From Verrucomicrobiales bacterium (GTDB lineage Bacteria; Verrucomicrobiota; Verrucomicrobiia; Verrucomicrobiales; DEV007), in contig JARGOD010000041.1 of assembly GCA_029210205.1 (NCBI GenBank), positions 1 to 35,400 on the forward strand: DNA of 35,400 nucleotides. Reading direction: 5' to 3'. Both the position numbers and the translations under genes were made by a program. The notes beneath the pieces are model-generated. The model was not told the DNA's origin, did not search any database, and worked only from the letters and a program-made list of their open reading frames with translations. Shown one piece after another: positions 61 to 19,944 of the stretch (positions are counted from its first letter, which is position 1; each line of letters opens with the position of its first letter).

Positions 61-1143
61 ATGAAGCGACTCATTCTCCTCACTTTCTCAACGGCAGCTC
101 TCGTCGGCTCATCTTTCGGCCAGGGCGCTCGACCGACGGACATTGCAGCCTCTCCTCAACCGGTGGGCGATGCCGGTATCATGTGGTACACCACGTGGGA
201 CACTGCCCTCGAAGAAGCCGAACGATCAAACCGCCCGATCTTCTTCATGGCCGCCGCCGCGACCTGCTCCGGAATATCCGGCGTCTTCTGACCCGGTTAC
301 ACCCAAACGCAGAACAGTTTGTTCTCGACTAAAGAATTTATCGAAGCCTCCCGTGAGTTTGTTTGTGTTCGTCTCGAAACCTTCGAAAACAAAGAGCATG
401 AGGCGCTCGTTCGTAAACTCCTCAACGGCCGCTTTGCGAACACCGCTTTCAGCGTCCTTGCTCCGGACGGCGAAACGCAATTGACCCGGGCCAGCCGCGG
501 ACCACAAAACATCCTTGGAACGAAGGGTCGTGGGCCCTCTGCAGAAGAGGGATCAACGGAAGATGTTATTCAAGCGATGAAAGAGATCGCTGACGAATAC
601 GCTTCGAAAGGTGATCCAGGAAAACTCGTTCTTCAGGACTTTCACTCGTTCCGACAAGCGTTAAATGTTGCCTCGGGTGATCAGCGCCTGCTTCTCTTCG
701 TTGCCGCTTCTCCCGGCGACCTTGAGAAGAGCAAAGAAACGCTTCAACCCGTCTTTGCACGGGAAGACATAATCGGGCGCTTTCACCTCGATTTCGGATC
801 AGCCGCTACCGATGCCTCCTGGGCAGATACAGTTTCAGACACCTGGGCGAAATCCGGATATTTCATCATTCAATCAGACCAATTTGGTCTCAACGGAAAA
901 GCGATTTCGCAGCTTCCACTCAGCGCAGACAAAGCGGCCATTGCTGATGCTCTCCTTGCGGCGAACGAACTCTTTGCTGCCTCTGAAGAGCGGAAGGACT
1001 ACTCTTCGCATGTCAGTGATGGTCGACGTGAGGATATCTTCTTCGAGAATGAAATCCCCTACGGAGAAGACCGGGACGGCGATGGCGAGATCGACGGCAA
1101 AGGCGGCGGCAAGGGGAAAGGGAAAGGCAAGGGAAAGGGGTGA
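61..1143 (+). CDS. Exported thioredoxin-like protein with in-frame TGA (candidate selenoprotein)
   Basis: Reading from ATG 61 gives 360 residues if the TGA at 289-291 (codon 77) is decoded. Residues 1-21 form a signal peptide (MKRLILLTF... ending SSFGQ). Residues 46-100 look like the start of a thioredoxin fold of the DUF255/Trx-like kind: WDTALEEAERSNRPIFFM, then C69, then GVF-TGA-PGY. The same frame continues without another stop for 284 codons and keeps protein-like sequence (EFVCVRLETFE, FANTAFSVLAPDG). The C-terminus has an EF-hand-like DRDGDGEID loop and a Gly-Lys tail. No frame shift is needed to join the halves. A hairpin with a G-first apical loop lies 19 nt past the TGA. The alternative is a pseudogene with one nonsense mutation. 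A separate downstream gene would need a TTG start at 319 inside the hairpin, which is unlikely. I see no selA, selB, selC or selD here. Confidence 0.72.
289..291 (+). other. In-frame TGA, candidate selenocysteine codon
   Basis: The codon is TGA at position 77 of the frame starting at 61, in the context C69-SGISGVF-(TGA)-PGY. It lies where a thioredoxin-like fold places its redox-active residues, eight residues after C69. TGA is an ordinary stop elsewhere in the window (PRX-like gene, antitoxin gene, ppc), so general code reassignment does not explain it. Decoding as Sec is inferred from frame continuity and the downstream hairpin. Confidence 0.6.
308..327 (+). promoter_or_regulatory. bSECIS-like stem-loop downstream of the in-frame TGA
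   Basis: AGAACA (311-316) pairs perfectly with TGTTCT (320-325) around a GTT loop. Two more pairs (308-327, 309-326) extend it with C310 bulged. The loop G at 317 is 25 nt past the TGA. Known bacterial SECIS elements have a short apical loop with an early G, roughly 16-37 nt from the UGA, so the geometry fits. The stem is short and AT-rich at its top, so chance remains possible. Confidence 0.5.
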
Positions 1144-1206: not shown

Positions 1207-1923
1207 ATGAAGCTTACCCCCCTTCTTCTCTCCGCTTGTTTCCTCTCGATTCTTCCCTCTAACGCAGAAGAAGAATTGCTCACCGCGACGATCGAAGCCC
1301 GGAAAACTGAGTTTCGCGCCAAAGCGGCTCCCGAAAAGCTCGCCGCTTACGCAGCAGGCATCGAAGCTGTCGTCAAAGCTCAAACCGTTGAGAAGGCGGT
1401 GCAGCAGGGCGCGAAGGCTCCGGACTTCACGCTACCGAATGCGAAAGGCAGCGAGGTCACCCTTTCTGAGAAACTTGCCGAGGGACCGGTCGTCCTCACC
1501 TGGTATCGCGGCGGATGGTGCCCCTACTGCAATATCCAGCTCGCCGCCTATCAGAAGGTCCTGCCTCAAATCGAGGAACTCGGTGCCCAACTCATCGCCA
1601 TTTCACCCGAGGTTCCCGACAAATCTCTCAGCACAACTGAGAAAAACAGCCTCCGCTTCGAAGTCCTTTCCGATGTGAATTCCAAGGTCGCGAAGGACTA
1701 TGGACTCGTCTTCGAACTCACTCCCGAGGTCGAAAAGCTCTACGCCGATTTTTTCGACATCGTCGAATACAATGGCGAGGAAGCCGCCAGGAACGAGCTT
1801 CCCCTCGCGGCGACTTATGTCATCGCGGAAGACGGCACCGTCGCCTGGGCTTTTCTCGATGCAGACTACACCAAGCGCGCCGAGCCGCGGGATATCATCG
1901 ATGCGCTGGATCGATTGGAGTGA
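1207..1923 (+). CDS. Exported peroxiredoxin-like (AhpC/TSA, PRX-like2) protein
   Basis: This 238-residue protein has a signal peptide (MKLTPLLLSACFLSILPSNA) and an amphipathic Ala/Glu/Lys-rich helix up to about residue 65. An AhpC/TSA-type thioredoxin fold follows: APDFTLPNAKG at 71-81 and WYRGGWCPYC with C105 and C108. The CxxC motif in the peroxidatic position is typical of the PRX-like2 group, which are thought to be thiol peroxidases or reductases. Start ATG 1207 is set by the signal peptide. It lies 63 bp after the candidate selenoprotein, with a hairpin between, so the two may be co-expressed or separately controlled. The exact substrate is unknown. Confidence 0.85.
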   Translation: MKLTPLLLSACFLSILPSNAEEELLTATIEARKTEFRAKAAPEKLAAYAAGIEAVVKAQTVEKAVQQGAKAPDFTLPNAKGSEVTLSEKLAEGPVVLTWYRGGWCPYCNIQLAAYQKVLPQIEELGAQLIAISPEVPDKSLSTTEKNSLRFEVLSDVNSKVAKDYGLVFELTPEVEKLYADFFDIVEYNGEEAARNELPLAATYVIAEDGTVAWAFLDADYTKRAEPRDIIDALDRLE

Positions 1924-2920: not shown

Positions 2921-3724
2921 ATGGCGGCATTTTCGAAGATGGGAGAGTCAAAAACAGGGAAACGAGTCGTCATTAAAATCGGAACCGGTGTACTGACACG
3001 CGGCTCCGGCGGTGAGATTCATCATGCGATGCTTGCCCGGCTTTCTCAGGCGATTGCCGATCTTCGTGGGGCTGGCAACGAAGTTGTTGTCGTGTCTTCG
3101 GGAGCAGTCGGAGCAGGCCTCTCAACGTTTCGGCTCGAAAAACGACCCACAGAAACTGACATGCTCCAGGCCTGCGCCGCAGCGGGACAGGCGCAACTCA
3201 TGCACCTTTATGAGACCCAGTTCAGCCATCACGGGTTGAGTGTCGCGCAGTTACTCGTGACCCATGACGACCTCAAGGACGCACGCCGCAGCGCCAATGT
3301 CCTCGCGACCGTGAATGCGATCCTTCCCTACGAATCGGTGATTCCGATCGTGAATGAAAATGATTCAGTCTCAGTCCATGAACTGAAGGTAGGCGACAAC
3401 GACGTCCTCTCCTCAATTCTGGCCCGCCTCATTGACGCTGATTTACTCGTGCTGCTGACGAGCGTCCGCGGACTCATGGGACCGGACGCCACTTCAGACG
3501 AGGATATCATTCCCCAGGTCAACGACATTGAGACCGTCCTCGACTTTGCCAGAGACGACAAAGGCGAACTTTCCGTCGGCGGCATGACGAGTAAGCTCCA
3601 AGCCGTGAAAGAAGCGGTCTCCGGCGGCGTCGAAACCGTGATCGCGAGCGGCCTCCATCCTGAACAACTCAGCGAAATCGTCGCCGGCAACGGAATCGGA
3701 ACGCGTTTTCCAGTTTCCTCATAA
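2921..3724 (+). CDS. proB: Glutamate 5-kinase (catalytic domain only)
   Basis: ProB phosphorylates L-glutamate with ATP to gamma-glutamyl phosphate, the first step of proline synthesis. The 267 residues are an amino-acid-kinase fold: VVIKIGTGVLTRGSG (phosphate loop), VVSSGAVGAG, IPIVNENDSVS (substrate site), and KLQAVKEAVSGGV near the end. The C-terminal PUA domain of the roughly 367-residue E. coli enzyme is absent, as in many short bacterial ProB proteins. The start is either ATG 2921 or ATG 2939 (MGESKTGKR); the latter leaves room for a leader after the predicted promoter. proA follows after 12 bp, so they form an operon. Confidence 0.95.
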   Translation: MAAFSKMGESKTGKRVVIKIGTGVLTRGSGGEIHHAMLARLSQAIADLRGAGNEVVVVSSGAVGAGLSTFRLEKRPTETDMLQACAAAGQAQLMHLYETQFSHHGLSVAQLLVTHDDLKDARRSANVLATVNAILPYESVIPIVNENDSVSVHELKVGDNDVLSSILARLIDADLLVLLTSVRGLMGPDATSDEDIIPQVNDIETVLDFARDDKGELSVGGMTSKLQAVKEAVSGGVETVIASGLHPEQLSEIVAGNGIGTRFPVSS

Positions 3725-3736
3725 ATCCCCGATATC

Positions 3737-5002
3737 ATGACTTCTGAAGAAATCTGCGAACAGGTTTGGCAAATGGGCAAGCAGGCCCGCGCGGCTTCTC
3801 ATGCCCTCACGAAACTCTCGACAGAGCAGAAGAACACGATTCTCCTCGCGATGGCCGACGGAATCATGGCACAGGAAGCAGAAATCATCGCCGCGAACGA
3901 GAAAGATCTCGCGACGGCCGATGAAATGGGGCTCACCGACGCGATGAAAGATCGTCTCCGCCTTGACCATGATCGCATTGCCGCGATGGCTCAAGGCGTT
4001 CGCGAAGTGGCGGAGCTCCACGACCCCAATGGCGAGATCATCAAAGAATGGACGCGCCCCAACGGCATCCGTCTTCAAAAGAAACGCACTCCCATCGGCA
4101 CGATCGGGATTATTTACGAAAGCCGACCCAACGTCACCGCTGACGCCGCTGTGCTTTGCTTCAAAACCGGAAATGCGACGATTCTGCGTGGTGGCAAAGA
4201 GGCGATTCACTCGAACCGGGCGATCGCGGCAGCACTTGCTGAAGGAGGCAAGCCCGCCGGCCTCCCCGATCATAGTATCCAACTGATTCCTTTCACCGAT
4301 CGCGAAAGCGTTCGTCATCTCTGCGAGATGGATACTTACCTCGATCTCATCATCCCACGTGGTGGAGCCAGTCTCATCGAGGCCGTCGTCGGAATGGCGC
4401 GCATGCCGGTAATCAAACATTACGATGGTATCTGCCACGCGTTCGTTGACAAGGCTGCCGACCTCGACATGGCGGAAGCGATCGTGATCAATTCAAAATG
4501 CCAGAAGCCATCGGTCTGCAACGCGCTGGAAACCCTGCTCATTCATCGCGATGTCGCCGCTGAATTTGCTCCACAGATCGCGCAGAACCTGTCTGCCAAA
4601 AACGTCGAGATTCGTGGTGATGAAACCTTCGCTTCTCTCGCTGGAGTCGATGTCGTCCCGGCGACAGAGGAGGACTGGAAAACGGAATATCTCGACTTCA
4701 TCCTCGCCGTGAAAGTCGTCGACGATCTCGATGCCGCGATAGATCATATCAATCACTACGGCTCGAAGCACACCGATGTCATCGTCACTTCAAACGAAGA
4801 GGCCGCCGATAAGTTTCAACTCGAAGTTGATAGCTCCTGCGTTTTCTGGAACGCTTCGACGCGCTTCAATGACGGCGCCGAGTTTGGTTTCGGTGCCGAA
4901 ATCGGAATCAGCACGGACAAGCTCCACGCCCGCGGGCCCATGGCCCTGGAAGAGCTTTGCAGCTACAAGTATCTCGCCTTCGGCTCCGGCCAGGTGAAGT
5001 GA
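3737..5002 (+). CDS. proA: Gamma-glutamyl phosphate reductase
   Basis: ProA reduces gamma-glutamyl phosphate to glutamate 5-semialdehyde with NADPH, the second proline step. The 421-residue length is usual. Family marks include GTIGIIYESRPNVT, TILRGGKEA, LIIPRGGASLIE and the catalytic cysteine C261 in KPSVCNALETLLIH. The C-terminal NDGAEFGFGAEIGIST and HARGPMALEELCSYKY close the fold. It lies directly after proB, and the two enzymes normally channel the labile acyl phosphate. The gene is intact. Confidence 0.97.
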   Translation: MTSEEICEQVWQMGKQARAASHALTKLSTEQKNTILLAMADGIMAQEAEIIAANEKDLATADEMGLTDAMKDRLRLDHDRIAAMAQGVREVAELHDPNGEIIKEWTRPNGIRLQKKRTPIGTIGIIYESRPNVTADAAVLCFKTGNATILRGGKEAIHSNRAIAAALAEGGKPAGLPDHSIQLIPFTDRESVRHLCEMDTYLDLIIPRGGASLIEAVVGMARMPVIKHYDGICHAFVDKAADLDMAEAIVINSKCQKPSVCNALETLLIHRDVAAEFAPQIAQNLSAKNVEIRGDETFASLAGVDVVPATEEDWKTEYLDFILAVKVVDDLDAAIDHINHYGSKHTDVIVTSNEEAADKFQLEVDSSCVFWNASTRFNDGAEFGFGAEIGISTDKLHARGPMALEELCSYKYLAFGSGQVK

Positions 5003-5013
5003 AGCTGCAGGCC

Positions 5014-5090
5014 GCTGGAGTGAGGCCTGTAGGCCTTTCCGTTGCCTTAGTCTTCCCTGTTACGAAAAGGGCTAAAGCCCTCACTCCAGC
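5014..5090. repeat. REP-like composite palindrome downstream of proA
   Basis: GCTGGAGTGAGG (5014-5025) is the exact reverse complement of CCTCACTCCAGC (5079-5090). Each arm also carries its own small palindrome next to the shared sequence: AGGCCTGTAGGCCT on the left and AGGGCTAAAGCCCT on the right. The structure resembles dispersed extragenic palindromes and could fold in the mRNA end of proBA. No second copy was noticed in this window. Confidence 0.65.
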
Positions 5091-5160
5091 CTCGACATTC
5101 GCGCTCGAGACACGCAATTGAGGCAATTGCAGACCAGTCCCCCCGCGTCGAGGATTCTTC

Positions 5161-6450
5161 ATGAGCTTGTCAAAGTCATCTCCCTCCCGTCGACACTTCC
5201 TCCGCTCGGTTGGAGCGACCCTTTCGCTCCCGGTGATGCCTTCCCTGTTGCCGAACGCTCTCGGAGCGAGCAACTCTCTCGGCACTGCCGTTGCTGAGAC
5301 GGCAAGTCCGTCACGCATGGTCGCAGTTGGCAACCTTCTCGGCTACCAGCTCGACAGCCTCTTTCCTAAGACGCCCGGCGCCAATTACGAGTCAACGCGA
5401 CTTCTCAAACCGTTTGAGTCGATCCGTGATCAAATGACCATTTATCGCGGCCTCGACCACGGCGTCAAAGGCGGACACTTTGCGGTTCATTCCTTTCTCA
5501 GCGGCGTTCTTAAAATGGATGCAAAAGGTCGTCCTGACGGAAATATCAGCCTCGACCAACTCGCTGCAGAATCTGTTCGTGGCCGTACCCGCTTCCCCTC
5601 CCTTACGGTGGGCTCCGAGGGCGGCATTCACGGCGGATGCCAGATGAGCTGGACTCGCAGCGGCACACGCGTTCCTCCCATTCCCGGGCCGCAGGAACTT
5701 TTCGAAAAACTCTTCGTTGGCGAGCCTGCCTCCCGACTCAATCACGTCAAAGATCGCCACTCACTTCAGGGATCGATTCTCGATGCGATTTCAGGCGACG
5801 CGAAAACCCTCGGAAACCGCCTCGATTCTGAGGACCGCACGAAACTCGACGAATATCTAACCTCCGTTCGTGAAGTCGAGCAGCAGCTCCAACTCAAAGA
5901 ACAATGGGTCGAAGTTCCCAAGCCGGATGCTCCGTTTGATCGACCCCGGAACATCAATCTCGTCGAAGATCTACCCCTGATCTACGATCTCATGGCACTC
6001 GCGCTTCAGACAGATTCGACTCGCATCGCGACTCTTGAAATTGGAGGTGACTTCCTGCCTCAACATCTCGGAGTTGAAGGTGGCTATCATGGTCTTTCGC
6101 ACCATGGCAAAAAGAAGGAAAATATCGATGCCCTCCTCATTATTGAAGAGTATCAGACTCAGCAGTTTGCCCGATTCCTCAAGAAACTTGATTCGATTCA
6201 GGAAGGCGAAGGGAGCCTCCTTGATCACACTTCAGTGCTGTTTGGCAGCGGTATGGGGAATGCCAATGCACACACGAATCACGATCTTCCGATTCTCCTC
6301 GCGGGCGGCGGATTTGAACATGGAACTTTCAAACAACTGCCGGCCAAGGGCGCTGGCAAAGTTCCTCTTTCGAATCTCTACCTGAGCCTCCTGCACCGTT
6401 TTGGCGTCGAGCGTGATTATTTCGGAAACAGCACCGGCACTTTTGTTTGA
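5161..6450 (+). CDS. DUF1552 family Tat-exported protein
   Basis: This 429-residue protein opens with a twin-arginine signal (PSRRHFLRSVGATLSLPVMP), so it should be exported folded. The body matches the DUF1552 family of Planctomycetota/Verrucomicrobiota: IYRGLDHGVKGGHFAVHSFLSG, TSVLFGSGMGNANAHTNHDLPILLAGGG and the closing LSNLYLSLLHRFGVE. The histidine-rich motifs suggest metal binding, but the activity is unknown. The stop at 6448-6450 lies just before the start of the DUF1592 gene, so the two are coupled. These families nearly always occur as a pair. Confidence 0.9.
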   Translation: MSLSKSSPSRRHFLRSVGATLSLPVMPSLLPNALGASNSLGTAVAETASPSRMVAVGNLLGYQLDSLFPKTPGANYESTRLLKPFESIRDQMTIYRGLDHGVKGGHFAVHSFLSGVLKMDAKGRPDGNISLDQLAAESVRGRTRFPSLTVGSEGGIHGGCQMSWTRSGTRVPPIPGPQELFEKLFVGEPASRLNHVKDRHSLQGSILDAISGDAKTLGNRLDSEDRTKLDEYLTSVREVEQQLQLKEQWVEVPKPDAPFDRPRNINLVEDLPLIYDLMALALQTDSTRIATLEIGGDFLPQHLGVEGGYHGLSHHGKKKENIDALLIIEEYQTQQFARFLKKLDSIQEGEGSLLDHTSVLFGSGMGNANAHTNHDLPILLAGGGFEHGTFKQLPAKGAGKVPLSNLYLSLLHRFGVERDYFGNSTGTFV

Positions 6451-6455
6451 GGACG

Positions 6456-8957
6456 ATGATTGATCGCTCGTTTCACGGTAGCGTTGCGCTGCTTGCCCTG
6501 CTCTTCGGGGCCACCCTCTCGCTGCGGGGCAACGACGGCGAGGTTGCCTTTCAATTCATCGGCAACAGCTGTCTTGAATGCCATGATGAGCTAACCCAGG
6601 AGGGTCACCGAAACTTCGAGGAGATCACTTTCCCGATCGAGGACGAAATGGGAATCATCGCAGTCCAGGAAATCATCGATCAACTGAATCTCGGGGCAAT
6701 GCCGCCGAAGAAAGCGGAGCAGCCCTCTCATGAAGCAAAGGCGAAAGCAATCGCTGCGCTCACCGCCGAAGTCGCTGACGCCCATTCCCGCCTCAAAAGC
6801 ACCGGTGGCCAGACTCTCCTCCGCAGGCTCAACGAGCGGGAGTATCTCAACACCCTCGAGGACCTCTTTTCCCGCCGCGTCGATACCTTTGCACCGACCG
6901 CCAAGTTCCCGACGGATCAAACCGATCATCACATCGACACGATTGGCGACGCCCTCGTCACATCCGGATTCCTTCTCGATAACTATTTCGAAGCAGCCGA
7001 CCTCGTCGTTGAAACTGCTCTTTCAACCGCCGAAAAGCCGGAAGTGAAAACCTGGAAGTTTACCGACAACTTCACGCAGGGACAGGAACTCAGCTACTCG
7101 CACAAGACCGTCTACAAATACCAGTATCTCTGCGTTTACGAAGTTCCTAACACGACCAACCACGAGGGAGGCTACGCCGGGCTTGAGCAATTTCCGGAAG
7201 GTGTTCACGAAGCGGGCTACTACGAGGTGAAAGTGCTCGCCCACTCGATGCACCGCGATAGCCCCTACGATCCTGAAATTTTCCAGATGGATCTCACTGA
7301 GCCCTTTCGACTCGGCATTGTCTCCGGTGACGCCCGCATCGGCGAACTCCATCATCCCCAGCCAGTCGAACCTCAACTCGGCGAAGTCACCGTCGCCGAT
7401 GGCAAACCGAAATGGTATACGATGAAGGTCTGGCTCGAAAAAGGTCAGCAACCCCGCTTCATTTTCCCCAACGGCATGGCGAACTGCCGCAAAGCTTTTG
7501 GCAAGATCGCCAGAGAATACAAGGACGACTGGCCGAAGCACGAGCAGAATGTCGCCAGCGGAATTTCCCAGGCCCGCCGCATCGTCCTCCAGCATGGAAA
7601 GATGCCGCACATCCGCATGCACGAGGTTCAAATCAAAGGCCCTCTCTACGACGAGTGGCCGCCCGCGCCGCAGCAAACGGTGTTCGGTAAGGACGGGTTT
7701 GATGCAAAAAACAAAAGAGAAATTCTCCATCGATTCGCCGAGCGGGCCTTCCGTCGTCCGGTGCAGGACGGAGAACTCCAACGCTTTGTTGATCTTGCCA
7801 ATCATCGCATCAAAGAAGGGCATTCCCCGCGTCAAGCGACTCTCGACGGGATCAAAGCAATCCTTTGCGCACCCTCTTTTCTGTATTTCGATGAAGCCGC
7901 CGAAAAGAAAAAGGGACGCCTCGGGGCGTGGGATCTGGCAAACCGGCTCTCCTATTTTCTCACCGCGAGCCTTCCTGACGAATCATTACGAAAGCTTGCC
8001 GCTTCAGGCGAGATCCTGAAAGAGGGGGTCATCAAGTCGGAAACGAAACGCCTCCTCGATTCGTCACGATCTGATGAATTCATCAAAGGATTCCTCGAAA
8101 GCTGGCTGAATTATCGAGCCCTCGGCGACCAGCCGCCCGACCGGAACTCATCGGCGCCGTATTACTACGACGACCTCGAGACGGCGATGAAATCGGAAAC
8201 TCATCATTTCCTGCGAGACCTCATCGAGAGAAACGGATCGATCACGAACTTTCTCGACAGCGACTATACTTTTCTAAACCGCCCTCTTGCGGAACACTAT
8301 CGAATCGACACGGCACCGTTCACTGATGCAAATGCCTACGATTTTCAGCGCGTTAGTCTTTCGGATCGCAGACGCGGCGGCCTCCTCGGCATGGGTGCGG
8401 TCCTCACCGTGAGCGCCAATGGGATCGAAACCTCGCCGGTCGTGCGAGGGGTTTATGTGATGGAAAACATTCTCGGGACACCTCCACCCCCGCCGCCGGA
8501 CGAAGTCCCCGCCCTCGAGCCTGACATTCGCGGAGCTACCTCGATTCGTGATCAGCTCGCGAAACACCGCGAACTCGCGACCTGCGCTGATTGTCACCAG
8601 AAGATCGATCCACCGGGTTTTGCGTTGGAAAACTTCGATCAAATCGGCCGCTGGCGCAGCACTTATCCCCAGACTAACAAGAAAGTCCCGGCCGTGAAAA
8701 TTGATCCCTCGGGAGAACTTTATGATGGTAGCCAGTTCAACCAGATTAGTGATTTCAAAAAGCTGCTTCTCTCTCGAAAAGATCAGTTCACGAAAAATCT
8801 GGCGGAGAAACTCCTCAGCTATGGTGCGGGACGAAGAATTGAACTTCTTGACCGGCCTCGCGTCGACAAGATCGTCGCGACGGTGAAAGAGCAGGATTAC
8901 GGCATGCGCTCCCTTCTCGAAGAAGTCGTCACCAGCGAGATATTCCTCTCTCGTTAA
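6456..8957 (+). CDS. DUF1592-type multidomain cytochrome-like protein
   Basis: From ATG 6456 (833 residues) there is a signal peptide (to about residue 25), then an N-terminal heme-binding region with CLECH (C39, C42, H43). Next come the DUF1587 region (LLRRLNEREYLNTLEDLF), a carbohydrate-binding-like region, DUF1595 (FAERAFRRPVQDGEL), DUF1592 (LANRLSYFLTASLPDESL), DUF1588 (GLLGMGAVLTVSANGIETSP) with a second CADCH motif at 710-714, and DUF1585 (EKLLSYGAGRRIE). This order is typical of PVC bacteria. It is probably an exported c-type cytochrome in an oxidative degradation pathway, partnering the DUF1552 protein. A TTG at 6447 is an alternative start; GAGG precedes ATG 6456. Confidence 0.9.
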   Translation: MIDRSFHGSVALLALLFGATLSLRGNDGEVAFQFIGNSCLECHDELTQEGHRNFEEITFPIEDEMGIIAVQEIIDQLNLGAMPPKKAEQPSHEAKAKAIAALTAEVADAHSRLKSTGGQTLLRRLNEREYLNTLEDLFSRRVDTFAPTAKFPTDQTDHHIDTIGDALVTSGFLLDNYFEAADLVVETALSTAEKPEVKTWKFTDNFTQGQELSYSHKTVYKYQYLCVYEVPNTTNHEGGYAGLEQFPEGVHEAGYYEVKVLAHSMHRDSPYDPEIFQMDLTEPFRLGIVSGDARIGELHHPQPVEPQLGEVTVADGKPKWYTMKVWLEKGQQPRFIFPNGMANCRKAFGKIAREYKDDWPKHEQNVASGISQARRIVLQHGKMPHIRMHEVQIKGPLYDEWPPAPQQTVFGKDGFDAKNKREILHRFAERAFRRPVQDGELQRFVDLANHRIKEGHSPRQATLDGIKAILCAPSFLYFDEAAEKKKGRLGAWDLANRLSYFLTASLPDESLRKLAASGEILKEGVIKSETKRLLDSSRSDEFIKGFLESWLNYRALGDQPPDRNSSAPYYYDDLETAMKSETHHFLRDLIERNGSITNFLDSDYTFLNRPLAEHYRIDTAPFTDANAYDFQRVSLSDRRRGGLLGMGAVLTVSANGIETSPVVRGVYVMENILGTPPPPPPDEVPALEPDIRGATSIRDQLAKHRELATCADCHQKIDPPGFALENFDQIGRWRSTYPQTNKKVPAVKIDPSGELYDGSQFNQISDFKKLLLSRKDQFTKNLAEKLLSYGAGRRIELLDRPRVDKIVATVKEQDYGMRSLLEEVVTSEIFLSR

Positions 8958-9074
8958 TTCGCAGGCAGTCGTCGCGCTTTTAATTGAATTTCCCGGTCAC
9001 CGGCTCTTCAGTCAGTTTCTCGGGAAATCGCCGAACTCGGCAGATATTCTGCTCTCTCGAAACGCTATCTTATC

Positions 9075-11792
9075 ATGCCCTCTTCCTCCCCCGCTGAACA
9101 ATCTAAAGTCCAACTCCTCACGAGTGGGCTGGAATCCCTCGACTCCGAAGTGCGGGAGATCATGACCTGTCTTCAGGAAGTACTCCATTCTACCGGTCAA
9201 TCCCACCTTGCCGAAAAACTTCCGTGGCTTGGAGGGGAAAGTGCCGAAGCGGCAATGGAAGAACCTCAGCAGACTTCTGAGGTCTACTCGATTGCTTTCC
9301 AGCTCCTCGATATGATTGAGGAGCAGGTCTCTCTCGCGACGAGAAAAGAGCGCGAGGTTCTTTTCGGACCTGAGACAGAGAAAGGACTCTGGCCACGTGT
9401 TCTCAAATCACTCAAGGATTCCGGTTTTGAAGAAAAAGCGATCGCGAAAGCGATGCAATCCGTTCGCGTCGAGCCGGTTTTTACGGCTCACCCGACCGAA
9501 GCGAAGCGTGCCAGTGTTCGCGAGCGTCACCGCGATCTTTACGACCAACTTCTCAAACTCGAGGAACCCGGACAGACTGCTCATCAGAAAGCGGAAGCCC
9601 GCGAAGACATGCTCACCGCGATGGAAGGTCTCTGGAGCACCGGGGAAATTCACACCGAGCGTCCAACGATCCAGCGAGAGCTGCGGAATGCGCTCTTTTA
9701 CCTCCGCGAAGTCTTCCCCGAAACGCTGGAACGCATGGATCGCAATCTTGAACATGCCTGGGAACAAGCAGGTTTCGATCCTGCAACACTTCGAGAAGCC
9801 GACGGAGGCCCGCGTATTCGATTTGGACTTTGGATCGGTGGAGACCGCGATGGTCATCCCTTCGTCACCGCCGATGTCACTCGCGACACGCTTATCGAGC
9901 TTCGCCGTCAGGCCCTGAAACTTTATCGTCGTGAACTTCGAAAGGTCGCCTATCAGCTCACCGTTTCCTCCCCCTCCCATCCGGCGCCAGAGGCGTTGAC
10001 AGAAAGAGTCAATGAACTCATCGCCGCTCTTGGCGAGGAAGGAATCTACATTCGCGACCGGAATCCCGAGGAGCCGTGGCGCGCCTTTGGTTATCTTCTT
10101 CGTGCCCAGCTCGGAGCTGATCTTGATGTCACCCCCGAGGGCTTTCGTTCCGACCTCGAACTCTTTCACAGCTCTCTCGAAGCGATCGGAGCAAACCGTC
10201 TCGCGGAGCGTTTCATCCGTCCCATCCAACGCAAATTTGCCGCCTTCGGCTTTCATCTCGCCGAACTCGACATCCGTCAGAACAGCGCGTTTCACGACAA
10301 GGCAGCCGCGCAGCTCCTCGAGGCAGCCGGCGTCGATAACGGAGAGTCTTTTGCGGATTGGAGCGAGGAAGAAAGAGTCACTTTTTTGACCAGCGAACTC
10401 GAATCGCCGCGTCCTTTCCTTCACATCGATCAGTCAGCTGGTCCCGAGGCCGATGCCGTGCGCGAGTGCTACCGCGTCCTCGTCGATCATCGCCGAAATC
10501 GGGGGCCAGGAGCTGGATCTCTCATTGTCAGCATGACTCGTCAGCTTTCTGATTTGCTCCTTATCCACCTCTTCGCCCGCGAGGCAGGATTGAGCGAACC
10601 AAATGGGGAGAGCACCGTCTGTCCGCTACAGGTCGTTCCCCTCTTCGAGACCCTCGACGATCTCGCAAATGGAGCCGGAATTGTCGATAACTACCTTTCC
10701 CATCCCGCCGTTCAAGCGAGCCTCGAAGTTTCCGGCGGCTCCGGCACGAAGAGCCAGCAGATCATGCTCGGCTACAGTGACTCCAACAAGGACGGTGGCA
10801 TCCTCGCAAGTCAGTGGGCCCTCCACGACTCTCAGGAGTCGATCTCTGCAGTGGGTAAAAAGCACGGTATCGAACTGCGATTCTTCCACGGCAGAGGCGG
10901 CACGATCAGCCGCGGTGCGGGACCAACAAATTGGTTCATGCGGGCGCTCCCTCATGGCTCTCTCACCGGCGACTTCCGTATGACGGAGCAAGGTGAAACC
11001 ATCGCGAGGAAGTATGCCTATCCTGACAGCGCCGTTTATCATCTCGAGAGCCTTCAGGCCTGTGTCACTCACGCGACCGTTCGTCATCGTATTGGCGAGC
11101 CGGTCGAAGATCCCGGGATCGACCTCATCCCGACTCTCGCGGAGTGGAGCACCGAAGCCTATCGCGACCTTCTTGAAACCGAGGGCTTCATCGCTTTCTA
11201 CCGACAGGCTACCCCGATTGATGCCCTTGAGCAGACACAGATGGGATCCCGACCTTCGCGACGAACCGGAACTGCCAGTCTCGATGACCTGCGTGCGATC
11301 CCCTGGGTCTTCAGCTGGACTCAATCCCGCTTCTATCTCCCCGGCTGGTATGGGGTCGGATCAGCACTTGATCGACTTCACCGGGAAACACCGGATGACT
11401 TTCAGCGTCTCGCCGACACCATCGCCGCTTCCACCCTTCCCCGATACATTTTCACGAGCGTCGAAACAAACCTCATGAGTGCGAATCTGGAACTCATGAA
11501 ATCCTACGCCGCTCTCGTCGAGGACGAAACGTTGCGGAAGACCTTCATGGATAAAATCGAGAATGAGTTCAACCTCGCGCGCAAGCACCTCGGGCAGCTA
11601 TTTCCCCGCGCGATCCACGAGCGTCGCCCCCGCTACGCGAAGACCCTCGGCCTCCGTGACGAACCACTCAACGTCCTCCATCGTCAGCAGATCGAACTGC
11701 TTCGCGAATGGCGAAAAACCGAAGACGATCTCCCGAGGAATCTGATCTTCTCAATCAGCGCCATTGCGAGTGGTTTGCGGACGACGGGGTGA
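9075..11792 (+). CDS. ppc: Phosphoenolpyruvate carboxylase
   Basis: The enzyme carboxylates PEP to oxaloacetate, refilling the TCA cycle. The 905 residues match the usual 880-970. Catalytic marks are VFTAHPTEAKR near residue 134 (active His), GGDRDGHPFVT, GYSDSNKDGG near 565 and FFHGRGGTISRGAGP near 602. The C-terminus ends in AIASGLRTTG, close to the family's terminal NTG. It stands alone. Its stop is one base from the stop of the convergent chrA-like gene. The upstream gap (8958-9074) holds only an 8-bp inverted repeat, ATTTCCCG/CGGGAAAT (8988-8995/9021-9028), of unknown meaning. Confidence 0.97.
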   Translation: MPSSSPAEQSKVQLLTSGLESLDSEVREIMTCLQEVLHSTGQSHLAEKLPWLGGESAEAAMEEPQQTSEVYSIAFQLLDMIEEQVSLATRKEREVLFGPETEKGLWPRVLKSLKDSGFEEKAIAKAMQSVRVEPVFTAHPTEAKRASVRERHRDLYDQLLKLEEPGQTAHQKAEAREDMLTAMEGLWSTGEIHTERPTIQRELRNALFYLREVFPETLERMDRNLEHAWEQAGFDPATLREADGGPRIRFGLWIGGDRDGHPFVTADVTRDTLIELRRQALKLYRRELRKVAYQLTVSSPSHPAPEALTERVNELIAALGEEGIYIRDRNPEEPWRAFGYLLRAQLGADLDVTPEGFRSDLELFHSSLEAIGANRLAERFIRPIQRKFAAFGFHLAELDIRQNSAFHDKAAAQLLEAAGVDNGESFADWSEEERVTFLTSELESPRPFLHIDQSAGPEADAVRECYRVLVDHRRNRGPGAGSLIVSMTRQLSDLLLIHLFAREAGLSEPNGESTVCPLQVVPLFETLDDLANGAGIVDNYLSHPAVQASLEVSGGSGTKSQQIMLGYSDSNKDGGILASQWALHDSQESISAVGKKHGIELRFFHGRGGTISRGAGPTNWFMRALPHGSLTGDFRMTEQGETIARKYAYPDSAVYHLESLQACVTHATVRHRIGEPVEDPGIDLIPTLAEWSTEAYRDLLETEGFIAFYRQATPIDALEQTQMGSRPSRRTGTASLDDLRAIPWVFSWTQSRFYLPGWYGVGSALDRLHRETPDDFQRLADTIAASTLPRYIFTSVETNLMSANLELMKSYAALVEDETLRKTFMDKIENEFNLARKHLGQLFPRAIHERRPRYAKTLGLRDEPLNVLHRQQIELLREWRKTEDDLPRNLIFSISAIASGLRTTG

Positions 11793-17202: not shown

Positions 17203-19944
17203 ATGAAATCATTCCCCGTTTACGTGCTATCACTTCTCTTCTTCGTCACTCCGGGAAGTTCTGAGGAGCTTTTGCTCACCCCGGAAGAATTCCCGAGAGT
17301 TGCTCCGACGGAGCCGTCCGATGCAATTATCAGCTTTGAAGTTGAGAAAGGATTCGAGGTGATGACGGTTGCGCATGAGCCGGCAATCATGGACCCGATT
17401 TCGATGGCGTTTGATGAAAAGGGACGGGCCTATGTCCTCGAAATGCGCGGTTACTCTGAGCGAAGGGATGAGGCTCTCGGAAGAGTGCGTCTTCTCACCG
17501 ACACCAATGGTGATGGAGTTTTCGATCAATCCTCAATCTTCAAAGACGGTCTAAAATGGCCCACCGCAATCCTTTGCTATCGCGGCGGTGTGTTTGTTGG
17601 GGCTACGCCGGATGTCTTCTATTTTAGAGACAATGACGGCGACGGCATCTCCGATGAAGACCGGCATCTCTTCACTGGCTTTGGTATTGGAAAACCCGAA
17701 CTCAACATGCAGGCACTCTTCAACAGTTTCCGCTGGGGACCAGACAATCGAGTATGGGGAGCAACCGCACCCAACGGAGGAAGCGTGACGCGCCCTGATA
17801 CACCGGAATTTGGGCCAGTTTCGCTTCGCGGAGCTGATTTCTCCTTCGATCCGGAAGCCCTCGACCTGCGCCCTGAAAACGGGACTGCTCAATACGGGCT
17901 GAGCTTTGACTCCAAAGGTCGTCGCTTTGTTTGTAGTAACTCCCGTCATCTCATCCATGTCGCCTATGAACGGCAACACCTCCGTGCCAATCCCCTCTAT
18001 CCTCCCCCGCCCGCGCTCGTGGATATTCCGGATGATGGCGCGGCCGCTCCGGTTTTCCGAATCAGCCCCGATGAGCCCTGGAGGATTATCAGGACTCGCT
18101 GGCGGGTTGCTGGAGTTGTTCCGGGCCAGGTTGAAGGCGGTGGCCGCGTCTCGGGATACTTCACCTCTGCGAGCGGTGTTCACCTTTATTGGGGTAGGAC
18201 GTTTGGAAAGGGATTTCGGAACAATGCCTTTATCGGAGACGTCGGAAGCAATCTCGTTCACCGCAAACTAATCGAACCCTCACGGGACTCGTGGTCATTA
18301 GTGGGTCGTCGTGCCTCCTCCAACGAGAAGACTGAGTTTCTCCGAAGCAGAGATAATTGGTTTCGTCCCACCAGTTTTGCGACCGGCCCTGACGGATGCC
18401 TCTATCTTACTGACATGTATCGGGAAACGATCGAGCATCCCTGGTCTCTCCCCGGACCGATCAAAGATCACCTCGACCTCAATAGTGGGTTTGATCGGGG
18501 AAGAATCTACCGGATTTCTCCTCTCGGTTTTACCCCACCGGAGCCAGTTGATCTCGGCACTCTGAGCGATGATGAACTGAAAGGATTTCTTCGGGAGCCA
18601 GACTCATCGCAATGGCACGAAACGACGGCACGCCGCCTCCTCTACGAACGTGGAGTCGGAATTCCAAAGCCGACCGCTCACCCTTTTCCGGCAATCCTTG
18701 ATACCGAATCATTAACGATCACTCCTGACGAAGCGGCACAGGATATCTGGAAACAATTCGCTTATCTGAACGCACTGCGATCTCCGGAATCGCTGAGAAT
18801 GGCCTGGGAGTCTGCCTCCACCTCCCATTCCCTGATTGCAGCCGAGATTGCGACGATGGTTGGTCGCAGTCGGGACTCCCATTTAATACTTCTTGTCTCC
18901 AATGACCTCGTTTCGAAATCGCCGTCTGATTGGACCGCCCGATCTCTCGCTGGATTAGCGAAGGGAGTTCGCGCAGGCATCGAAAAGTCGAAGAAGGAAT
19001 CCCTGATCGCAGAGGGATTCTCAGCTACGGACTTCTCTTACACAAAGTTCAAAGAGCTTCCGATCTGGGCCCCTATGGCAGAGCAGTGTCGAGAGATCCT
19101 CGAGAACGAAGAGACTAATGAGCATAAGGAGGCGGCCATCTCTTTGCTGTCCCTGATTGGAGGAGAAGGATCAGAATCGTTTCTCGCCGATCTCCTCATT
19201 GCTGATGCGACCGACGAATCGCTAAAAGAGCTTCTCGCTGGATCAGTCACTGATCCTGACACTATTGCGAATGCCTTTCCGAAGCTGCCCGCAAACGCGC
19301 GTGCCGCTTCAGCGGACAAGCTCCTGAAATCAGTCAGTGCCTCAGAAATTCTTTTAGACCTTTTAGGCTCAGGGAAACTCCCACTCAGTAGAATACCAGC
19401 CGCCATCATCGGCGGGCTTCGCACCCATGGGAACAAATCGATCTCAACGAAAGCTGCGGAGATTTTACCCCCCGTCATTTCGCGGACCGACGTCATCGAA
19501 AAGTATCGGCCTGCGATTGAGATGGCCGGTGACCCCCGGGCAGGCAGGCAGATCTTTTCCCAAGCTTGCCAGTCTTGTCATCTCTCTCATGAAGGAGAAG
19601 GAATCGACCTGGGACCATCTCTCACCAGTTTTGGAACGGCAGGGCGCGCTTCTTTACTTGAGCGTATCCTCGATCCGAATCGCGAAGTTGCCCCTCAATA
19701 CGAAGCCTATCTTTTCACGCTACCCGAAGGAAAGACCCTCTCCGGAATGATCCGCTCAGAGACAACAGACAGCATCAACTTGAGACTTCCCGGCGGACTC
19801 GATGAAACTTTTTTGCGAAGCGAGGTGACTTCAATGAAAGCGATCGGCCAATCATTGATGCCGGAGGGAATCGAGAACACCGTTACGATCTCGGAAATGG
19901 CCGATCTTCTAAGCTACCTTGAAACGGCACCGCTGAAAGATTGA
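17203..19944 (+). CDS. PVC-type membrane-bound dehydrogenase with C-terminal heme domain
   Basis: This 913-residue exported protein has a signal peptide (MKSFPVYVLSLLFFVTPGSS). A beta-propeller dehydrogenase-like domain (about 45-450) follows, of the PVC 'putative membrane-bound dehydrogenase' type (SFEVEKGFEVMTVAHEP, ATGPDGCLYLTDMYRE, GRIYRISP). Two Asp-rich calcium-type loops (TNGDGVFD, DNDGDGISDED) sit early. A helical HEAT-like stretch (about 480-770) leads to a c-type cytochrome-like domain with CQSCH near 788 and the closing LLSYLETAP. Such proteins are thought to oxidise sugars or alcohols outside the cytoplasm. The substrate is unknown. It is divergent from the amidohydrolase/GDPD operon. 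Confidence 0.88.
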   Translation: MKSFPVYVLSLLFFVTPGSSEELLLTPEEFPRVAPTEPSDAIISFEVEKGFEVMTVAHEPAIMDPISMAFDEKGRAYVLEMRGYSERRDEALGRVRLLTDTNGDGVFDQSSIFKDGLKWPTAILCYRGGVFVGATPDVFYFRDNDGDGISDEDRHLFTGFGIGKPELNMQALFNSFRWGPDNRVWGATAPNGGSVTRPDTPEFGPVSLRGADFSFDPEALDLRPENGTAQYGLSFDSKGRRFVCSNSRHLIHVAYERQHLRANPLYPPPPALVDIPDDGAAAPVFRISPDEPWRIIRTRWRVAGVVPGQVEGGGRVSGYFTSASGVHLYWGRTFGKGFRNNAFIGDVGSNLVHRKLIEPSRDSWSLVGRRASSNEKTEFLRSRDNWFRPTSFATGPDGCLYLTDMYRETIEHPWSLPGPIKDHLDLNSGFDRGRIYRISPLGFTPPEPVDLGTLSDDELKGFLREPDSSQWHETTARRLLYERGVGIPKPTAHPFPAILDTESLTITPDEAAQDIWKQFAYLNALRSPESLRMAWESASTSHSLIAAEIATMVGRSRDSHLILLVSNDLVSKSPSDWTARSLAGLAKGVRAGIEKSKKESLIAEGFSATDFSYTKFKELPIWAPMAEQCREILENEETNEHKEAAISLLSLIGGEGSESFLADLLIADATDESLKELLAGSVTDPDTIANAFPKLPANARAASADKLLKSVSASEILLDLLGSGKLPLSRIPAAIIGGLRTHGNKSISTKAAEILPPVISRTDVIEKYRPAIEMAGDPRAGRQIFSQACQSCHLSHEGEGIDLGPSLTSFGTAGRASLLERILDPNREVAPQYEAYLFTLPEGKTLSGMIRSETTDSINLRLPGGLDETFLRSEVTSMKAIGQSLMPEGIENTVTISEMADLLSYLETAPLKD

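Follow-up and report, generated by a model that had tools for sequence, protein, structure and literature searches.

Is the TGA codon that interrupts an otherwise open frame at the start of contig JARGOD010000041.1 a stop codon, or is it read as selenocysteine (Sec)? The contig belongs to assembly GCA_029210205.1 of a Verrucomicrobiales bacterium (4.9 Mb, 86.6% complete, 195 contigs), and the stretch analyzed, referred to as the window, comprises its first 35,400 nucleotides (nt). On the forward strand, positions 61-1143 translate into 360 residues when the TGA is counted as a residue, with an ordinary TGA stop codon at 1141-1143. An earlier analysis made from the DNA letters (the sequence-only reading) had proposed a selenoprotein gene here, its frame broken by one TGA only and with a C-x7-U spacing. 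Translation bears out both statements: the sole internal TGA is codon 77 (289-291), in the motif G-V-F-U-P-G-Y, and Cys69 (265-267) lies eight residues ahead of it. Elsewhere in the window TGA is an ordinary stop codon, since 16 of the 30 open reading frames (ORFs) of at least 230 amino acids, by mechanical count, terminate in it. The sequence analyses described here indicate that Sec is almost certainly inserted at codon 77, and that the gene very probably encodes an exported selenoprotein of a family found in no database or inventory searched.

Genome contigs were scanned with peptide patterns placed away from codon 77, which yielded 43 relatives; those closest to the window gene come from genomes named Verrucomicrobiales metagenome-assembled genomes. 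Codon 77 was TGA in all 42 relatives covering it (L045 does not), at 45-80% identity. Profile searches were performed on three partly overlapping genome sets. Counting the genome of the window, the phylum sample (387 genomes) contained 3 carriers of the family and the order set (386 genomes) contained 72; 54 of 392 Planctomycetota genomes gave matches at E ≤ 1e-4, two of these being weak generic thioredoxins (G449, G682). All 29 distant planctomycete loci (L080-L108) showed TGA in the same alignment column.

Altogether 176 loci were examined, and 171 cover the codon-77 column (L045, L146, L148, L149 and L152 do not): 169 have TGA, one a gap (L150) and one TGC (L151). The last two are generic thioredoxins and were excluded as family members. 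All 169 family matches, that is, 168 relatives and the window gene, therefore carry TGA at codon 77, and none carries Cys, Trp or another codon; they span Verrucomicrobiota and Planctomycetota, with identity down to about 28%. Duplicates between collections were retained in this set, which holds 102 distinct 24-residue contexts and 136 distinct 48-nt stretches without N. The match at locus L147 is split between two rows in different frames, the TGA being in one of them; two matches of the order search (G1073:C62 and G802:C39), placed off codon 77 by their coordinates, are outside the count. The surroundings of the codon are also conserved: the preceding residue is F (115 matches) or W (54), the residue at +3 is Y (126), K (42) or F (1), and Cys is found at -8 in 167 of 169 matches.

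One stop codon in one draft genome, 86.6% complete, might be a sequencing or assembly error at 289-291, or the mark of a pseudogene. The same TGA, however, occurs across many genomes of two phyla, so that the relatives already refute an error, and a pseudogene is opposed by the selection seen beyond the stop. In comparisons of the window gene with close relatives, the ratio of nonsynonymous to synonymous substitution rates (dN/dS) was 0.054 (L003) and 0.048 (L004) upstream of the TGA and 0.056 and 0.028, respectively, downstream of it; with L005 it was 0.098 upstream, and the downstream value was not computable. These ratios are rough because all dS values exceed 1 (1.3 to 5.3, saturated). The probability of an error or a pseudogene is negligible: the in-frame UGA is conserved and coding constraint is seen on both of its sides, as expected of a selenoprotein gene.

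Downstream of the TGA, a hairpin resembling a bacterial selenocysteine insertion sequence (SECIS) was identified at 308-327 of the forward strand, 20-39 nt counted from the U of UGA. Its core stem pairs 311-316 with 320-325 around the loop 317-319 (GUU), with extra pairs 308-327 and 309-326. The published bacterial SECIS model, in the accessible part of its source (PMC13188914), has a loop of 3-9 nt, a stem of 4-16 bp, a G in the first two loop positions and a spacing of 16-37 nt. The window element lies within these loop, stem and spacing ranges, with a GUU loop closed by A-U, six core pairs and 24-25 nt from UGA to loop.

Conservation of this hairpin was seen at the level of both codons and base pairs. 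A codon-constraint test was done on 37 of the 43 relatives, the window included, after dropping rows with N or partial rows. Synonymous sites beneath the hairpin were nearly frozen: codons 83-85 were ACG, CAG and AAC in 37 of 37 sequences and codon 88 was TTC in 36, and the 12 highest of 327 nine-codon windows, ranked by excess codon identity, begin at codons 75-86. Covariation was analyzed on 58 of 68 distinct stretches, some close duplicates being omitted by hand. The six core pairs were paired in 96.8% of cases against 73.6% in shuffled alignments, 77 cells had both sides changed against 31.0, and the covariation value was 0.640 against 0.241 (0 of 500 shuffles in each case) and at most 0.172 in six slid controls. 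RNAalifold, unaided, recovered five of the six core pairs. All four core pairs tested form in 122 of the 136 distinct stretches, the loop G and U are kept in 129 and the loop G in 130. Distant members differ in sequence downstream of the TGA, yet most of them form a hairpin with the same spacing. Apart from the window element, which it recovers by construction, a covariance model built on the hairpin gave a single weak hit, at 17376-17418 (E 0.089).

The loop letters at 316 and 319 of the window (positions 28 and 31 of the hairpin) switch jointly from A..U to G..C, in both phyla (41 of the 43 sequences aligned). One of the two changes is synonymous, and distant members also have AGUCU, so that the coupling is not strict.

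The TTG at 319 raises another possibility, namely that an exported peptide of 76 residues and another protein, starting from this TTG or from a different site, are encoded by two separate genes. As the sequence-only reading had noted, the TTG falls within the hairpin; it occupies part of the loop and stem and opens a 274-residue ORF. This codon (codon 87) is TTG in 25 of the 37 relatives of the codon test, but CTG in 12, and translation from TTG 319 would leave the modelled domain without its first strand and its active-site helix. Against two separate genes stands also a stop that is TGA in 169 of 169 matches and never TAA or TAG. We regard this arrangement as barely credible.

The sequence-only reading had made selenoprotein status depend on sel genes in the genome. 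The complete set was found: tRNA-Sec (61.5 bits, gathering score 47; anticodon TCA), SelA (511.6 bits), SelB (290.2 bits, cut-off 242.25) and SelD (378.1 bits, cut-off 125). The selD gene has an in-frame TGA of its own, in the active site after SSCGG, and the hairpin behind it has an AGUUU loop, the same as that of the window hairpin. In control genomes the cut-offs were exceeded by tRNA-Sec in 5 of 14, SelB in 2 of 14 and SelA in 1 of 14; in 20 family-carrying genomes checked, by tRNA-Sec in 15, SelB in 18 and SelA in 19. The list of 114 selA-positive genomes of the order includes 66 of the 72 that carry the family; the selA search behind it covered 372 genomes against 386 in the family search, and its negatives are not all listed.

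Readthrough of the TGA as a standard amino acid, for example Trp, by a near-cognate or suppressor tRNA and with the hairpin as stimulator, would likewise show a kept UGA and a kept hairpin. Such programmed readthrough is nevertheless very improbable in view of the absence of any sense codon at position 77 (0 of 169 matches), the Cys kept at -8, the loop shared with the genome's own selD hairpin and the co-occurrence of the gene with selA in most genomes. Insertion of Sec remains the preferred interpretation, as the sequence-only reading had suggested: SelB and Sec-tRNASec most likely decode UGA 77, aided by the downstream SECIS-like hairpin, because the UGA is conserved, the hairpin is under compensatory selection and the machinery is present.

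Other selenium-related genes were observed in the same genome. Positions 3044-11738 of locus L074 hold a selenium cluster composed of selD (with its own TGA), selA, an ABC transporter and selB. The substrate-binding protein of this cluster reaches 252.4 bits against a cut-off of 250 for TIGR04553, 'putative selenate ABC transporter', and the PhnC- and PhnE-like genes stay below their cut-offs. A second selenoprotein, VPGUxxT type 2, is encoded at L141 1432-2373 (339.5 bits, cut-off 275); behind its TGA lies a hairpin whose loop is GGUC.

The sequence-only reading had also looked to relatives lacking Sec for a Cys at codon 77, an expectation that failed in 169 of 169 matches. No Cys, Trp or other sense codon was found at codon 77 in the 387 phylum, 392 Planctomycetota and 386 order genomes or in the contig scan, the three profile searches having scored at most five best first-look candidates per genome, so that a distant Cys form could be passed over. 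Plasmid searches returned nothing, and none of the 27 pattern matches in viral contigs was a relative. The lack of a Cys relative at codon 77 is unusual for selenoproteins: according to the accessible parts of PMC13188914 and PMC12013277, Cys counterparts exist for nearly all known selenoproteins, and of the two standard routes to their discovery one depends on such counterparts. Methods requiring Cys/Sec pairs would overlook a family of this kind.

The encoded protein starts with a hydrophobic segment resembling a signal peptide (residues 1-21 approximately, 61-123); similar N-termini were seen by eye in relatives, and the predicted model has a low-confidence helix at residues 2-20. Judged from this N-terminus only, the protein quite probably works outside the cytoplasm. 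The segment is followed by a putative Thioredoxin_7-like N-terminal domain (about residues 40-160, 178-540) and a second thioredoxin-like domain without Cys in the window protein (about residues 190-310, 628-990), both with approximate borders. The second domain was assigned from the secondary structure of the model and from Foldseek. The C-terminal region (1063-1140) consists of an acidic stretch, GEDRDGDGEID, and a Gly/Lys-rich tail modelled at low predicted local distance difference test (pLDDT) values. The acidic stretch (1063-1095) is strongly conserved near the C-terminus and has a sequence that, we presume, resembles a calcium-binding loop.

The structure was predicted with Cys put for Sec (pLDDT 85, predicted template modelling score 0.82). 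The model shows the beta-alpha-beta order of the thioredoxin fold, with the active site at the N-terminus of a helix: a long loop connects a strand at 60-65 to a helix at 78-84, which begins right after residue 77, and for this reason residue 77 is placed at the N-terminus of the predicted active-site helix. The best Foldseek matches comprised PDI- and QSOX-type proteins with tandem thioredoxin domains, which superposed poorly (root mean square deviation, rmsd, 13-20), and single domains (rmsd 3.7-5.7), among them AGR2, ERp19, DsbD gamma and a Methanosarcina domain (3ira); AGR2, ERp19 and DsbD gamma (PDB 9i3f, 1sen and 1uc7) share the one-domain fold, with template modelling (TM) scores by target length of 0.57-0.62. 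These three proteins, to our knowledge, are without Sec and without the longer active-site loop. In the main protein alignment (34 of the 43 sequences), PF13899 (Thioredoxin_7) matched 34 of 34 members at E ≤ 1, with a best E of 0.0013. The description 'Trx-like' given by the sequence-only reading thus agrees with the predicted fold, but not with the Pfam cut-off: the window protein scores 13.9 bits against a gathering score of 27. A profile search of PDB sequences gave nothing meaningful, the best match (E 0.026) being a sulfatase.

Several results weigh against this interpretation of the gene and of its product. Cys homologues at the Sec position, the customary support for a selenoprotein although outside its definition, were not found, and the usual Cys/Sec-pair argument is therefore absent. 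Cys at -8 is missing from L170 and L171. For the hairpin, the pairs changed on both sides (4 against 3.7 shuffled, 331 of 500 shuffles) and the pair types (10 against 8.6, 80 of 500) show no excess; 14 of the 136 stretches break at least one of the four core pairs and 7 are without the loop GU. Folded alone, the window hairpin is weak, at -5.9 kcal/mol, and without significant stability (z -1.41; 20 of 200 shuffles were equally stable). It misses the energy limit of -7.5 kcal/mol given in the accessible part of PMC13188914, which 67 of the 136 distinct stretches pass. Since 5 of the 14 controls exceeded the tRNA-Sec cut-off, the presence of this tRNA rests also on its TCA anticodon. Of the 72 genomes of the order that carry the family, six (54-87% complete) are absent from the selA list, some of them perhaps not re-searched. 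The Foldseek matches are partial (TM scores by query length 0.19-0.29). Finally, no widely shared partner gene was found in the gene neighbourhoods of the 43 loci: the largest shared neighbour clusters occur at 10 of the 43 loci, all of which are named Roseibacillus or Akkermansiaceae, and a sulfatase-like cluster, assigned by inspection, at 6 scattered loci in varying places.

The window protein stayed far below every cut-off of NCBIfam and Pfam. The remaining 33 members were compared by E-value only, and the best values were 0.00025 (CT795) and 0.0005 (VPGUxxT type 1) in NCBIfam and 0.0013 in Pfam; the best NCBIfam value for four distant members was 0.0014. The match to CT795 (NF053728), weak and shared by 3 of the 34 members, was taken for chance.

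By sequence comparison, VPGUxxT appears as the closest known relative of the family. Its types 1 and 2 (NF041382, NF041383) likewise have a Thioredoxin_7-like N-terminal domain with VPG or ISG-like residues ahead of Sec, and the family of the window gene could be a true selenoprotein but a divergent branch of VPGUxxT. When four of the 29 distant members were aligned with five of the seven VPGUxxT proteins using hhalign, the probability was 94.6, with Sec on Sec; NF041382 gave weak matches to 15 of the 34 members (best E 0.0005) and to one of four distant ones. The main 34-sequence set, however, joined the five VPGUxxT proteins at a probability of only 37, NF041383 was listed for none of the 34 members and for one of the four distant ones at E 0.21, and the window protein scored 14.7 bits with NF041382 against a cut-off of 350.

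The motifs and architectures also differ. In VPGUxxT, U directly follows VPG and is part of UxxC or UxxT, whereas the family described here lacks this motif, having F or W before U and no Cys or Thr at +3, and its longer loop carries the extra Cys at -8. The C-terminal part of VPGUxxT type 2 matches MsrA weakly (PMSR, E 7e-4), in place of the second thioredoxin-like domain. Furthermore, VPGUxxT has a Cys form, with Cys at the Sec codon, in L142 from the genome of L005, while none was found for the present family; L142 is a relative of the VPGUxxT type 2 protein encoded by a separate gene in the genome of the window. We therefore favor a family of its own, and consider a branch of VPGUxxT unlikely, if more plausible than the other alternatives discussed.

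Among VPGUxxT-like loci, three from different planctomycetes, L136 (minus strand), L137 and L138, carry another in-frame TGA 116-120 codons after the first; it precedes FW, where others read CFW. L137 also has a weak MsrA (PMSR) match. These could possibly be double selenoproteins.

The Trx7/PDZ (seleno)protein (NF041199) likewise has a Thioredoxin_7-like start. It matched 18 of the 34 members weakly (best E 0.011), and the window protein scored 11.5 bits against a cut-off of 300; its motif is CxxU according to Table 1 of PMC13188914. GOS_B and GOS_C (NF041374, NF045500) are, like the present family, hypothetical selenoproteins with no assigned function. Both were found in marine metagenomes and GOS_C is described as UxxC with a thioredoxin-like fold, in the accessible part of PMC2398784. 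Their models were not among the NCBIfam matches of the 34 members and the four distant ones.

The model and the profiles would place Sec77 at the N-terminal nucleophilic position of the thioredoxin active-site helix (U-P-G-Y/K), and in the light of the model Sec77 is probably nucleophilic. The second Cys of a CxxC motif is missing; instead, the longer loop before the helix would bring in Cys69, a candidate resolving residue that may resolve the oxidised Sec as a Cys69-Sec77 selenenylsulfide, for and against which we see equal chances. A role as a selenol-based thiol or peroxide oxidoreductase outside the cytoplasm is an evenly balanced proposition; candidate substrates, to which the neighbouring genes offer no clue, are a peroxide, a protein disulfide and a selenium or metal compound.

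The gene directly downstream in the window (1207-1923) encodes an AhpC/TSA peroxiredoxin-like protein, which is a neighbour in only 3 of the 43 loci. It is followed at 1969-2624 by a pair consisting of a FitA-like ribbon-helix-helix antitoxin and a PIN-domain toxin (PF22513, PF01850). In L151 (minus strand), which lies outside the family, a TGA in the context DSV-TGA-GVRC falls in frame within a generic thioredoxin-like sequence; this is perhaps another selenoprotein.

The family is not in Table 1 of PMC13188914, which gives the 2026 inventory of 119 prokaryotic selenoprotein families, nor is it described in the accessible texts of PMC2398784, PMC12013277, PMC9312934 and PMC4807772, supplements aside; S9 Table of PMC4807772, with candidates of two planctomycetes, falls outside this statement and could include a member. 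These results identify a new selenoprotein family, whose fold and recoding route are already known and whose unusual feature is that no Cys form occurs among any of the members examined.

This may reflect a selenium-obligate enzyme family, in which sulphur cannot do the reaction, Sec was never swapped for Cys across two phyla and the gene was lost together with the Sec machinery, a tentative proposal that we judge somewhat less probable than not. If true, homology searches seeded with Cys proteins would not see the family, and SECIS energy filters would miss about half of it. Genes of this kind are likely to fall into an annotation blind spot, appearing as two ORFs split by a stop. A family from two phyla whose examined members all have Sec calls into question the notion of Sec as an optional upgrade of Cys, and it offers a test ground for what selenium does beyond sulphur.
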